Part shown: one piece after another, positions 60,280-64,000 of the stretch
Layout of the letters: the number at the start of each line of letters is the position of its first letter
How positions within the stretch are numbered: position 1 is the first letter of the stretch
NCBI RefSeq assembly: GCF_024498955.1
Contig: NZ_CP093311.1
Location: 2,294,001 to 2,358,000 of the forward strand
DNA length: 64,000 nt
Source: Thermomonas paludicola
GTDB taxonomy: Bacteria; Pseudomonadota; Gammaproteobacteria; Xanthomonadales; Xanthomonadaceae
Reading direction: 5' to 3'
Program-made: the position numbers and the translations under genes
Notes under the pieces: generated by a model
What the model was told of the DNA's origin: nothing
Seen by the model: the letters and a program-made list of their open reading frames with translations, nothing else
Databases searched by the model: none

Positions 60280-61899
60280 TCAGGGAACGGGGGCAAGGCT
60301 CAATTCGGCGAGAAATGCATTGTGGCTCGCTTTCGCCCTGGCAAGGTCGTGTTCGATCCGGACCAGCTCGGCATGCACGGCCGTCAGATCGACCTCTTCT
60401 TCGGCCTGCGCCGTACTGACATAGCGCGAGATATTGAGGTTGTACTCGTTGTCGATGATCTCCTGCAGCGACACCCGGCGGGAATAACGCGCCTGCTCGG
60501 TACGTTCCCGATACGTCGACACGATCCGCGCAATGTCCTGATCGCTCAGCTGGTTCTGGCGCTTGCCCTTGGTGAAGTGCTCGGCCGCGTTGATGAACAG
60601 CACGTCGTCGGGCTTCTTGCACTTCTTGAGTACCAGAATGCAGACCGGGATGCCGGTGGAATAGAACAGGTTGGCCGGCAGGCCGATCACGGTGTCGATG
60701 TGGCCGTCGGTGAGCAGCTTGGTGCGGATGGCCGCTTCCTTGCCGCCGCGGAACAGCACGCCGTGCGGCAGGATGATCGCCATCACGCCGTCATCCTTCA
60801 GGTAATGCAGGCCGTGCAGCAGGAAGGCGAAGTCGGCGGCGCTCTTGGGTGCCACCCCGTGGTTCTTGAAGCGCGGGTCCTGCGCCATCGCCTCGCCCGG
60901 CTCCCAGCGGTAGCTGAAGGGCGGGTTGGCGACAACGGCGTCGAAACGCGGCTTCTTCGCCGGATTGGTTTCGCGCAGGAAGTCCCAGTCGTTGGTCAGG
61001 GTATCGCCGTGGTAGATCTCGAACTCGGTGTCCTTCACCCCGTGCAGCAGCATGTTCATGCGCGCCAGGTTGTAGGTGGTGATGTTGGATTCCTGGCCGT
61101 AGATTCGGCCGATGCTGCCGCCGGCCGCCTTCATGCGGTGGCGCACGTTGAGCAGCAGCGAACCGGAGCCGCAGGCGAAATCGAACACGCTGCCAAGCGA
61201 GCGGCGCGGGCCGGCCTTGGGTTCCTGGCTGTCCAGGGTGACGATGGCCGACAGGATGTTGGAAATCTGCTGCGGCGTGTAGAACTCGCCGGCCTTCTTG
61301 CCGCTGCCGGCGGCGAACTGGCCGATCAGGTATTCGTAGGCATCGCCCAGCGCATCGACATCGGTGGAAAAGTCGGCGATGCCCTCGGCGATCTTGCTGA
61401 TGATGGCGCACAGCTTGGCGTTGCGGTCGGCGTACTTGCGCCCCAGCTTGTCCGAGGCAAGGTTGATTTCCGAGAACAGCCCTTGGAAGTGGCTCTGGAA
61501 GGATTCTTCCTCGATGTATTTGAAGCCGCCCTGCAAGGTGTCCAGCAGCGCGTCGTTGTGGCTCTTGGCCAGGTGGACGATGTGGCCCCACAGATACTGC
61601 GGCTGGATGACGTAGTGCGCCTTGCGCCGCATCTGCTGCTCGAACGCCGGCACGTCGTCGGCATTGTCGGCATACCACACCGACAGCGGCGTCCGGCCGC
61701 CGTTGCCGATGGCATCCGGGTCGGGATAGTCGGCGCCCAGCTCCTTCTTCGCGGCTTCCTCGTAGTTCCACGACAGATAACGCAGGAACAGGAAGGACAG
61801 CATGTAGTCGCGGAAGTCATCCGCGTTCATCGCGCCGCGCAGCTGGTCGGCGATCGCCCAGAGGGTCTTGCCGAGTTGTTTCTGGTCGTTGTCGGTCAC
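60280..61899 (-). CDS. hsdM: Type I restriction-modification methyltransferase subunit
   Basis: 539 residues from a GTG that overlaps the stop of the 67-residue gene (GTGA). N-terminal helical HsdM domain (LGKTLWAIADQLRGAM), SAM motif I DFACGSGSLLL (D240-G246) and catalytic NPPF (N325-F328), so N6-adenine methylation is expected. It is last in the operon; the canonical order puts hsdM before hsdS. No hsdR is visible, so it would lie beyond 64000 or be absent. Confidence 0.96.
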   Translation of the reverse strand: MTDNDQKQLGKTLWAIADQLRGAMNADDFRDYMLSFLFLRYLSWNYEEAAKKELGADYPDPDAIGNGGRTPLSVWYADNADDVPAFEQQMRRKAHYVIQPQYLWGHIVHLAKSHNDALLDTLQGGFKYIEEESFQSHFQGLFSEINLASDKLGRKYADRNAKLCAIISKIAEGIADFSTDVDALGDAYEYLIGQFAAGSGKKAGEFYTPQQISNILSAIVTLDSQEPKAGPRRSLGSVFDFACGSGSLLLNVRHRMKAAGGSIGRIYGQESNITTYNLARMNMLLHGVKDTEFEIYHGDTLTNDWDFLRETNPAKKPRFDAVVANPPFSYRWEPGEAMAQDPRFKNHGVAPKSAADFAFLLHGLHYLKDDGVMAIILPHGVLFRGGKEAAIRTKLLTDGHIDTVIGLPANLFYSTGIPVCILVLKKCKKPDDVLFINAAEHFTKGKRQNQLSDQDIARIVSTYRERTEQARYSRRVSLQEIIDNEYNLNISRYVSTAQAEEEVDLTAVHAELVRIEHDLARAKASHNAFLAELSLAPVP

Positions 61900-62099
61900 C
61901 GCGCCAGATCCCTGTCGGCCTTGGCCTGGCTGCGCAAGGTATCGGCGGAAATCCGTACAGTGCGGCCTTCGCGCACCACGACCAAGTCTGTGCCGCTATC
62001 CATCGCGGTTTTACGTGCCAGTGCGGCTGCACGGCGCAACGCAGCTTGCGAGGCGCGCAGGTCAGGGTTTCGTGCGTTGGAAATATCGCGTGGCTTCAT
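61896..62099 (-). CDS. 67-residue protein, candidate antitoxin
   Basis: Starts MKPRDISNARNPDLRASQA, then Ala/Arg-rich helix and a short C-terminal beta-like motif DLVVVREGRTVRISAD. No annotated domain is certain. It overlaps the zeta-kinase stop by 4 nt (ATGA) and the hsdM start by 4 nt. Small basic proteins next to zeta-type kinases are often their antitoxins, so that role is inferred from context and size only; it could instead be an accessory of the R-M operon. Confidence 0.7.
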   Translation of the reverse strand: MKPRDISNARNPDLRASQAALRRAAALARKTAMDSGTDLVVVREGRTVRISADTLRSQAKADRDLAR

Positions 62100-62614
62100 G
62101 GCTTTTCGCTCCAGTCGAGCAGGACGGGCTCATCGCCCGAATTATCGTACAAGGCCCAGTCGTCCACCTCGGCCTTGTACACCGCATCGAAGTTGCGCAG
62201 TCCGCTGGAAAAACGGCGACGAATCACCGCTTCGGGAATGTCGTGTCCTCCCTGCTGCACCCGCGTGGCCACGCGGTCGATGGCGGTCTGTGCCGCAGGC
62301 AGGCTCAGGAAGAACAGGCTGACGTGGTAGCCCAGCGCGCGCCAGTGCCGGATACGCTGCCGGTAGCCGACACCGGAGAGTGTGGTTTCGAACGCGAAAC
62401 TCTCGCCGCGGGCGACGCAGGCCTCGATCTCTTCCAGCATCAAGCGCCCCGCCTTGATCGCCGCCGATTCCGGAGCGAACGGCGACAGCCCCGCCGCGAT
62501 CAGATCGGCATTGATGAAACGCGGTAGTTGTGCCTCGTCGGGCAGAAACGTGCGGGCAAAGGTGGTCTTGCCCGCGCCATTGGGACCGGCAAGGATGATG
62601 ATGCGCTTGCTCAT
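62096..62614 (-). CDS. Zeta toxin-type P-loop kinase
   Basis: 172 residues. Walker A GPNGAGKTT (residues 10-18), NADLIAAGLSPF after it, and FAFETTLSGVGYRQRI, the arrangement of zeta/PezT-like kinases that phosphorylate UDP-N-acetylglucosamine. It is short compared with epsilon-zeta zeta (~290) but in the range of many chromosomal zeta-family proteins. Overlaps the RhuM fragment and the downstream 67-residue gene by 4 nt each, so it is read as part of the hsd operon. Confidence 0.88.
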   Translation of the reverse strand: MSKRIIILAGPNGAGKTTFARTFLPDEAQLPRFINADLIAAGLSPFAPESAAIKAGRLMLEEIEACVARGESFAFETTLSGVGYRQRIRHWRALGYHVSLFFLSLPAAQTAIDRVATRVQQGGHDIPEAVIRRRFSSGLRNFDAVYKAEVDDWALYDNSGDEPVLLDWSEKP

Positions 62615-62853
62615 CCGCGCAGCCCCGCAGGCGAAGTTCTTTCAGGTTGAACTACCGAGGATCCCTCGGTGGTTCGTTCAGGCTCCAACTCTCTGTCTGC
62701 AAGAATGCTTTCCGGATGCAGGCTGATGCTGTCGGCGGTGACGTCGAACAGTTCCGCCATCTCCGCCTGGGTCAGCCAGACGGTCTGGCCGTCGGCGCGC
62801 AGTTGGATACGGCTGTGGCCGTCCTCGCTGGTGGTGAGGATCAGGCCACTCAT
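62611..62853 (-). pseudogene. Truncated RhuM family gene
   Basis: 80 residues. The first ~65 match the N-terminus of RhuM/virulence proteins (EDGHSRIQLRADGQTVWLTQ shown without its tail, then AEMAELFDVTADSISLH and ERTTEGSSVVQ); full members are ~330 residues. The frame then gives a short unrelated tail PERTSPAGLRG and stops at the zeta start. Overlaps hsdS by 4 nt (ATGA) and zeta by 4 nt. It looks like a 3'-deleted RhuM gene, although the remnant still has an open frame and could be made as a small DNA-binding protein. Confidence 0.8.
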
Positions 62854-64000
62854 GCGCTTGCACCTTCCAGAACGGGGAACAGCTGCTGCATCAGGCCCTG
62901 CTTGTGGGTCTTGAGGGCGGCGAGCTGGTTGGATTCGGCGGTGATCTGGGTGTCGAGGGAGGAGAGGCAGTCGGCGATGCGTTGTTGTTCAGCTAGTTCT
63001 TCGCCCTTACCGCTCGAAGGAGGAATCGGGATTGGTAACGCTGCGTACTCGGTGCCATTGATGCCAGGTTGCCCACTTCGCGCCGAGATGACGTGTACCC
63101 AATTCCAATACTGTTGTGTAGTGAGGAAGCTGGACACAAAGGTCGGAACGGCCTTCCTTCGGTTTGGCCGGATTCGAATCAGAAAGCCAGCAAAGACCAA
63201 GCGGCCGTCTTCCTCGCGGTAACAATACGATTTGCCAACGCTTGCCCCGGTGCGGGCGAGAGCGATGTCACCATCACTCAAATAGTTTTCCGCCGTGGCG
63301 TCGATGTCGACAGATACCTTGCCAGCCGAGACAAACCGCCCCTCGGTGTCGATGTCAGTGATTCTGAGATAGCTTGGCAGGCTTGGGGAAAACGGAACCG
63401 CAGGCGCATTTACGCCGTACTCGGGCTTGCCCTCAAGCAACTCTCCGAGCGGAACAGTCGACCACTCCGGCGCGCTGCGGAACTCGGGAAAGCGGAGGCG
63501 GGGGCGGGTTTCGCCTTCACGGGGGAACAGCTGCTGCATCAGGCCGCGCTTGTGCGCCTTCAACGCCTCTACCTTGCGGCCCTGCGCGGCAATCACCTCG
63601 TCCAGCGAGGTCAGGCAGTCGGCGATTTTTTGTTGCTCGGTTAGATCAGGAACGGCGACTTCAATCTTCTCGATGTTTGATTTCGACAGACTCGGGACAC
63701 CACCAGCCTCGTTGTGTTTTAGCCAATCGATCAGCTGGAAGTGCAAGAACACAAAACGAGGCAAGCATCCCTTGAACGAATGGGTATAGAAGAGCGTGTC
63801 TACAGTCCAGAATTTCCCGGTCAAGAAGATGGGATTATTGATCGTGCCCTTCCGGCCTATACATGCACTCTCTCCGTCGTACAGATAGTCATCAACAGAG
63901 AGCATGTAGCCGCCAGATCCATACACGGGGATTGGGCCGGTACCAAGATGCTTGTAATCCCTACCACTTCCGATCGTTAGAAGCTCACCAAGCGGCTTTA
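62850..64000 (-). CDS. hsdS: Type I restriction-modification specificity subunit, 5'-truncated
   Basis: 382 residues are visible and the frame stays open past base 64000; only about the start of the first target-recognition domain is missing. Two recognition domains are each followed by a conserved coiled-coil: EQQKIADCLTSLDEVIAAQ and EQQRIADCLSSLDTQITAE, both ending KAHKRGLMQQLFP-like. The recognition domains are visibly less GC-rich than neighbouring genes, as is common for these modules. The gene lies upstream of hsdM, the reverse of the usual order. Confidence 0.93.
   Translation of the reverse strand, partial: KPLGELLTIGSGRDYKHLGTGPIPVYGSGGYMLSVDDYLYDGESACIGRKGTINNPIFLTGKFWTVDTLFYTHSFKGCLPRFVFLHFQLIDWLKHNEAGGVPSLSKSNIEKIEVAVPDLTEQQKIADCLTSLDEVIAAQGRKVEALKAHKRGLMQQLFPREGETRPRLRFPEFRSAPEWSTVPLGELLEGKPEYGVNAPAVPFSPSLPSYLRITDIDTEGRFVSAGKVSVDIDATAENYLSDGDIALARTGASVGKSYCYREEDGRLVFAGFLIRIRPNRRKAVPTFVSSFLTTQQYWNWVHVISARSGQPGINGTEYAALPIPIPPSSGKGEELAEQQRIADCLSSLDTQITAESNQLAALKTHKQGLMQQLFPVLEGASA
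62874..62897. repeat. Direct repeat in hsdS, copy 1
   Basis: 24 identical bases shared with 63522-63545; they encode the LMQQLFP end of the second conserved region. The copies are 648 nt apart, a multiple of three. Confidence 0.9.
63522..63545. repeat. Direct repeat in hsdS, copy 2
   Basis: Second copy of the 24-base repeat, at the end of the central conserved region. Recombination between the copies would remove 216 codons in frame. Confidence 0.9.

Follow-up and report, generated by a model that had tools for sequence, protein, structure and literature searches.

Why should a kinase of the zeta-toxin type and a protein of only 67 residues lie between the specificity and methyltransferase genes of a type I restriction-modification (R-M) operon? 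The genome of Thermomonas paludicola is one contig of 2,717,354 bases, and the stretch analysed here (the window, 64,000 nucleotides long) covers its positions 2294001-2358000. At the right edge of the window, on the minus strand, the gene order is hsdR-hsdS-rhuM'-kinase-67-hsdM, in which rhuM' is a RhuM-type N-terminal fragment and 67 is the gene of the 67-residue protein. The zeta-type P-loop kinase (62096..62614, minus strand; 172 residues) is a candidate toxin, and the basic partner protein of 67 residues (61896..62099, minus strand) is its candidate antidote. We put at roughly 0.5 the probability that the two form a toxin/antidote-like module that R-M operons have captured repeatedly and that acts as a second-line defence. 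The recurrence of the pair in unrelated restriction systems suggests that it may serve these as a reserve means of suicide or as a safeguard against their loss.

Association of the kinase with restriction-modification genes

A search with the kinase alone, blind to its neighbours, covered 296 genomes of the family, 398 of the phylum and 369 of the class, with E-value limits of 1e-20 in the family and phylum samples and 1e-35 in the class sample. A match was found in 6 of 296, 29 of 398 and 30 of 369 genomes, respectively, the genome of T. paludicola being included in each count, and in 1 of the 16 genomes of the genus, again with its own included. Leaving out the locus of the window gives 64 loci from 62 genomes; G025 and G585, each present as two rows that are pieces of one locus, are counted once, and contig edges make all locus counts approximate in both directions. 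In 18 of the 64 loci the kinase has, on its own strand and no more than 5 kb away, a methyltransferase gene (PF02384, with limits of 1e-5 in one sample and 1e-10 in the other, or PF01555): 6 of 34 loci from the family and phylum samples and 12 of 30 from the class sample. The toxin HigB (PF05015), taken as a control in these 62 genomes, has such a gene at 3 of 113 loci (Fisher one-sided p = 9.8e-7, odds ratio 14), a comparison that uses one control family and methyltransferase genes only, leaving hsdS and hsdR aside, in related genomes that are not independent, with the methyltransferase places compared by eye. Left uncounted are a HigB locus (G849) and a kinase locus (G858) whose methyltransferase gene within 5 kb is on the opposite strand. 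The control rejects the idea that the R-M link is what any toxin would show.

Three further loci (L078, L132 and L150) hold HsdS and/or HsdR without a methyltransferase by this rule, which brings the loci with any R-M gene to 21 of 64; the HsdS profile PF01420 was searched in the 34 family- and phylum-sample genomes only, that of T. paludicola included. Sorted by identity to the kinase of the window, linkage is seen in 10 of 18 loci at 65% or more, in 5 of 19 at 55-65% and in 6 of 27 below 55%. An association of homologues with hsd genes, which had been set beforehand as a test of the first-pass annotation, thus holds, and it is wider than was supposed, extending over type I and type III systems.

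The position within these operons is not random. The kinase stands directly behind hsdS in 7 of the 10 type I loci (L058, L070, L078, L130, L132, L146 and L152; in L146 the match to hsdS comes in two pieces, and the gene may be split). In the type III loci (n = 11), mod is upstream of the kinase in 8; the kinase starts within about 10 nucleotides of the mod stop in six (L134, L135, L136, L139, L142 and L143), and Res matches follow downstream in six (L134, L135, L136, L139, L143 and L144), while in L142 a frame of 903 residues lies downstream. The putative capture is, by gene order, mostly directly behind the DNA-specificity gene, which is hsdS in type I and mod in type III. L065, L067 and L068 have the order DUF4391-kinase-small-mod, the small gene overlapping mod by 4 nucleotides; a SNF2 helicase gene precedes DUF4391 in L065 and L067, and the contig of L068 ends there. 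These loci read as a composite R-M-like operon made of a SNF2 helicase (L065 and L067), DUF4391, kinase, small protein and type III mod. The DUF4391 protein of L065 matched nothing in PADLOC at 1e-20.

A tree of 69 kinases, named and plasmid loci included, was built after 15 of 84 had been left out as broken or partial; L131, which has a mod fragment only and is excluded from the 21 of 64, is counted as type III in it. The type I label (15 rows) changes 9 times and the type III label (11 rows) 7 times, and of these the starred branches require no fewer than 3 (type I) and 4 (type III). The labels are more clustered than shuffled ones, whose means are 13.9 (type I) and 10.4 (type III). By these label changes, the R-M association arose or was lost several times, on a rapidly built tree in which some branches are long and gain is not distinguishable from loss.

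Recurrence of the cassette in relatives

Eleven loci were fetched with the family of the 67-residue protein, and the named relatives of the proteins come from Thermomonas, Pseudoxanthomonas and Dyella. The full order hsdR-hsdS-rhuM'-kinase-67-hsdM is found in a metagenome-assembled genome of Pseudomonadota (L010), hsdR-hsdS-kinase-67-hsdM with a frameshifted kinase in P. spadix (L011), kinase-67-hsdR-hsdS-hsdM in an Armatimonadetes bin (L014) and rhuM'-kinase-67 followed by a truncated hsdM in Dyella (L016). In Verrucomicrobiales (L019) the order is hsdR-hsdS-kinase-67-hsdM with a transposase-like open reading frame between hsdS and the kinase; this frame reads like a REP-associated/IS200-type transposase and is a possible clue to mobility. 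The other six of the 11 loci (L012, L013, L015, L017, L018 and L020) show no hsd gene: L013, L017 and L018 are short Verrucomicrobia contigs with little flank, L020 is a type III operon of the order mod-kinase-small-res, and in L012 and L015, where the kinase is broken, no R-M gene was found. The order of the cassette also recurs, with differences, in the sampled genome G950. A one-off pairing with hsd genes is rejected by this recurrence in relatives and in sampled loci.

Identities of kinase and HsdM to those of the window run parallel in L010 (83 and 85%), L130 (79 and 76%), L019 (76 and 75%) and L014 (69 and 68%). The kinase of L058 has 74% identity to that of the window and the HsdM only 26%, yet the order is hsdR-hsdS-kinase-small-hsdM, in another type I family.

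The small partner and its fate beside broken kinases

A search with the 67-residue protein returned 46 proteins at E <= 0.001, its own included, none of which carries a Pfam domain. The protein itself belongs to no Pfam or PADLOC family, and its sole NCBIfam row (E 0.046, below cut-off) is noise. Its model consists of a long helix, a beta hairpin and a second helix (predicted local distance difference test score, pLDDT, 86), and comparison with the PDB gave no convincing match. Two related motifs recur in the partners, DPDLRxSxxALxRAAxxARxxAxxTxTxLVVxRDG and xLxxAVxxALExKRRLGQYAVxWxDGKPV.

The partner lies downstream of the kinase here and wherever it is recognised in the sampled loci. A partner frame of 50-75 residues with one of these motifs starts in a 4-nucleotide overlap with the kinase in 31 of the 64 loci, a count read by eye; in a few loci, for example L063, L083, L084, L090 and L140, the frame chosen by the script is an artefact. 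Many of the remaining frames start within about 17 nucleotides of the kinase. The first-pass view of the two as paired genes is accordingly upheld, and the pair is a conserved and widespread two-gene unit.

Where the kinase is broken or partial, the partner is often kept. Eight of 15 such loci retain an intact partner frame, beside a kinase with a frameshift (L011, L015, L062, L089 and L091), an insert (L144) or a stop codon (L070 and L074); some of these breaks may be assembly errors, and the survey ran in one direction only, from broken kinase to partner. L012 has a stretch that matches the partner and no listed frame, and L063 is ambiguous. The partner of L070 (L070:5249-5647), which belongs to a type I operon, carries a fused HicB-like antitoxin domain (PF15919, 29.2 bits, cut-off 27). 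In L074, the frame that follows the partner scores 25.1 bits with PF15919, below the cut-off. An intact partner beside a broken toxin has also been reported for AvrRxo1/Arc1, in passages of PMC4938570. Taken together, the retention of the partner beside broken kinases and the HicB-like fusion make us lean towards an antidote role.

Family, fold and conservation of the kinase

The zeta-type identity given in the first-pass annotation is supported by family and fold. The kinase matches AAA_33 (38.4 bits) and Zeta_toxin (36.3 bits), each above its Pfam cut-off, and its predicted fold matches zeta/PezT, with the Walker A motif and the catalytic Asp of the zeta-toxin fold present. The model fits polynucleotide kinases no less well than zeta, so that the polynucleotide-kinase fold describes it too. 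The Pfam matches of the kinase include no HEPN and no full ATP-binding cassette (ABC) domain, only weak P-loop matches in their place. For zeta itself, Asp67, Glu100, Thr118, Arg120 and Thr128 are given as the residues that bind uridine diphosphate N-acetylglucosamine, in the part of PMC3062530 consulted. With polynucleotide kinases fitting equally well, this compound is one candidate substrate of the kinase.

Among 36 kinases diverged as far as 37%, 24 columns are invariant, Lys16 and Asp37 of the kinase among them. Against L010, the ratio of non-synonymous to synonymous substitutions (dN/dS) is 0.11 for the kinase, 0.22 for the 67-residue protein and 0.15 for hsdM (rough values, at dS of about 0.4-1.05). 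In five comparisons the kinase gives 0.08-0.12, below the 0.15-0.31 of hsdM in four, with dS partly saturated. A neutral passenger, the pair being a remnant like the RhuM fragment, is very improbable in the light of this selection and these invariant columns, even with a decayed RhuM fragment in the same junction and with 15 of the 84 kinase loci put to the tree broken or partial.

The operon in Thermomonas paludicola

All genes of the operon are joined by 4-nucleotide stop/start overlaps, the five junctions of hsdR-hsdS-rhuM'-kinase-67-hsdM reading GTGA, ATGA, ATGA, ATGA and GTGA. The four overlaps that link hsdS, the RhuM fragment, the kinase, the 67-residue protein and hsdM, as first noticed, were re-read in the sequence, and the fifth joins hsdR. 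Kinase and partner are predicted to be co-translated with hsdS and hsdM from one message by stop/start coupling. The type I specificity gene hsdS (62850..64000, minus strand) has its 3' 382 codons in the window and its start outside (L007:4082); the full-length HsdS of 410 residues matches PF01420 (92 bits, 6.4e-26) and PADLOC Specificity_I (5.6e-91). The type I DNA methyltransferase subunit gene hsdM (60280..61899, minus strand; 539 residues, GTG start) matches TIGR00497 (378 bits, cut-off 243; 5.5e-113) as well as PF02384 and PF12161. Just beyond the window, hsdR (L007:7111-4079; 1010 residues) overlaps hsdS by GTGA and carries HSDR_N and EcoR124_C domains (203 bits). With hsdR, hsdS and hsdM all full-length open frames with family matches, the type I R-M set is complete and has an EcoR124-type HsdR; EcoR124 is type IC, as is EcoprrI.

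A terminator-like hairpin with a run of T residues (L007 7241-7216) stands between hsdR and the groEL gene upstream of it. Because this hairpin stands behind groEL, the transcription unit probably starts in the gap of about 105 nucleotides before hsdR. Downstream of hsdM there is a convergent gene that reads like an acetyl-CoA hydrolase/CoA-transferase.

The RhuM-type N-terminal fragment (62611..62853, minus strand; 80 residues) matches PADLOC PDC-S05 (6e-21) over 74 of its 80 residues, a profile that we read as RhuM; a Pfam search gave no match. The fragment has the same 80-residue length in L010 (77.5% identity, dN/dS 0.34), is degenerate in Dyella, where the start codon is missing at the aligned site, and had no match in P. 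spadix. Because it is degenerate in the one and unmatched in the other, it is dispensable, and its candidacy as an essential part is ruled out on the same grounds. Only the N-terminal piece is present, and the first-pass annotation is corrected slightly in that this piece is a dispensable part of the cassette. Many of the matching PDC-S05 profiles are themselves only 82-116 positions long, so that RhuM N-terminal proteins of this size may be frequent in defence loci and not just leftovers.

Comparison with known systems

A close parallel is PrrC of EcoprrI, in which a toxin gene is embedded in a type I operon, as the candidate toxin gene is here, and HsdR here is of the EcoR124 type. PrrC differs in being an ABC-ATPase plus HEPN anticodon nuclease silenced by the R-M enzyme, whereas the genes read here encode a 172-residue zeta-type kinase and a small partner. 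In EcoprrI, prrC follows the S gene directly. Parts of PMC3874165 describe prrABD as type IC and prrC as embedded in the type IC operon. R-M guardians are few, PrrC and PARIS being those named in passages of a 2025 review (PMC12707154).

Compared with epsilon-zeta/PezAT, the zeta-toxin kinase fold, Walker A and catalytic Asp are shared. The kinase is shorter (172 residues against about 270 in solved zeta chains), and no epsilon/PezA antidote was found upstream, where the RhuM fragment and hsdS lie; the 67-residue partner is downstream. AvrRxo1-Arc1 is alike in that AvrRxo1 is a zeta-like kinase with a downstream antidote, and unlike in that AvrRxo1 has about 420 residues, is secreted and belongs to a type III secretion context, whereas the context here is R-M. 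The motif of Arc1, KExFD(x25-27)(Y/L)ExxYY in the passages seen of PMC4938570, is absent from the 67-residue protein, which has no Tyr or Phe, and from all 24 aligned partners.

Toxins of the HEPN, DOC and RhuM families have been described as recurrently lodged in R-M operons and proposed as second-line defence (Anantharaman et al. 2013, PMC3710099, in the parts consulted); the likeness is in recurrent toxin genes in R-M operons, and the difference is that these are other protein families. A search of the main text of that paper for 'zeta' and 'P-loop kinase' gave zero hits. The literature search, within the passages retrieved from open-licence PMC papers, found no description of a zeta-type kinase nested in R-M operons; in the parts seen of PMC6211672, zeta genes and hsdS genes appear in separate tables under different locus tags.

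The nearest case is the pSYSG island of Synechocystis PCC 6803 (L092:4303-8429), where hsdS, MNT, a zeta family kinase (63% identical) and a 59-residue protein stand in one run, with the difference that extra toxin genes (DUF4433 and macro-domain genes) follow. Several toxin types are thus stacked there behind one type I specificity gene. The passages seen of PMC4963859 give sll8001-ssl8005 as toxin-antitoxin-related genes that missed its criteria, without testing, and we infer that these tags are the pSYSG hsdS-linked genes. Toxins in R-M operons are already known; as far as the sources covered go, it appears to be new that a zeta-type kinase and a partner encoded downstream of it travel recurrently in R-M operons, the pSYSG island being nearest to this.

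Guarding, addiction or assistance

We consider it likely that the kinase and the 67-residue protein are a toxin/antidote pair. Toxicity of the kinase is suggested by its fold, pairing and decay pattern, and the partner would neutralise it. Should they be such a pair, a guard of the R-M system is somewhat favoured, and pure addiction would keep a substantial minority share. In a healthy cell the small protein, the assembled R-M complex or the two together would keep the kinase silent. If an anti-restriction factor of a phage, or the take-over of the host, then disturbed the R-M complex or halted the synthesis of a labile partner, the freed kinase might phosphorylate an essential small molecule or nucleic acid and so arrest the cell, giving a second line of defence like that of PrrC behind EcoprrI. 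That anti-restriction or operon shutdown would be the trigger is proposed on the model of PrrC and PARIS, and because the pair favours R-M operons. The first-pass annotation suggested that a shutdown of methylation drops the antitoxin, an idea that we do not prefer to sensing in the manner of PrrC or to simple addiction. Kinase and partner share one message, and on loss of transcription the kinase would come free only if its partner decayed faster.

Several observations weigh against the guard reading. By the criteria used, 43 of the 64 sampled loci have no R-M gene, and six of the nine plasmid regions examined (from 117 matching plasmid records, with incomplete feature lists) have none among their listed features; because of both counts, guarding R-M cannot be the sole role of the family. 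In L075 and L076, both succinyl-CoA-ligase loci, the pair stands before sucD with a 4-nucleotide overlap, in L076 also behind sucC (sucC and sucD were checked by Pfam), and in L086 it stands behind a glutamyl/glutaminyl-tRNA synthetase gene. The kinase is broken or partial in the R-M loci L011, L070, L144 and L158, and so appears dispensable there, and 6 of the 15 loci with such a kinase have no recognised intact partner (L012, L090, L140, L155, L156 and L158). No sequence test places the partner in the epsilon/PezA type, and antidote genes usually precede the toxin gene.

The guard idea is plausible, and its main rival is an addiction module, to which we give a real chance, well short of even. 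In that account a toxin-antitoxin module inserts between co-transcribed genes and preserves itself and the linked operon while sensing no restriction; R-M and defence operons would be frequent hosts since they are mobile and often lost. Its main argument is the presence of the pair in the non-defence operons just named and on plasmids, and it agrees with the patchy distribution in genus and family (1 of 16 and 6 of 296 genomes). The module also enters a CRISPR (clustered regularly interspaced short palindromic repeats) operon, where the kinase and a protein of 57 residues lie between cas9 and cas1 on one strand (L060:7667-12585, G036:C1), and TOTE primase-helicase genes follow the pair in L079, L081, L082 and L091. 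The order in these related genomes is kinase-small-190-residue protein-TOTE primase-helicase, and the contig of L079 holds the primase in part. As for the plasmids, the pair of pSYSG is in an hsd locus, that of Geminocystis is near a RloB-family gene and that of Cupriavidus has a cytosine methyltransferase gene at a distance of about 1.3 kb. Addiction fits less well with the strong R-M enrichment relative to HigB, itself a toxin of the addiction type, albeit one control family, and with the preference for the place directly behind hsdS or mod.

It is unlikely that the pair is no toxin at all but a nucleic-acid or nucleotide kinase with an accessory protein that aids the R-M enzyme, in end repair or in assembly and regulation, without killing. 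The pair occurs by genes that have no business with DNA ends, such as those of succinyl-CoA ligase and the tRNA synthetase, and the partner is kept beside a broken kinase in 8 loci. Restriction cleavage, moreover, leaves 5'-phosphates.

Implications

More tentatively, and with the odds against so broad a claim, the pair could represent a family of R-M guardian modules, in which a minimal kinase of zeta/polynucleotide-kinase fold and a small antidote move between unrelated type I and type III operons, land behind the specificity gene and fire when restriction is inhibited; they may guard CRISPR and TOTE systems likewise. If the guard reading is true, restriction backed by suicide would be a general and testable design across phyla, carried by a portable two-gene unit whose trigger could be dissected in E. 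coli. Kinases annotated as 'zeta toxin family protein' or 'predicted ABC-type ATPase', and their nameless partners, would thereby gain a functional hypothesis.

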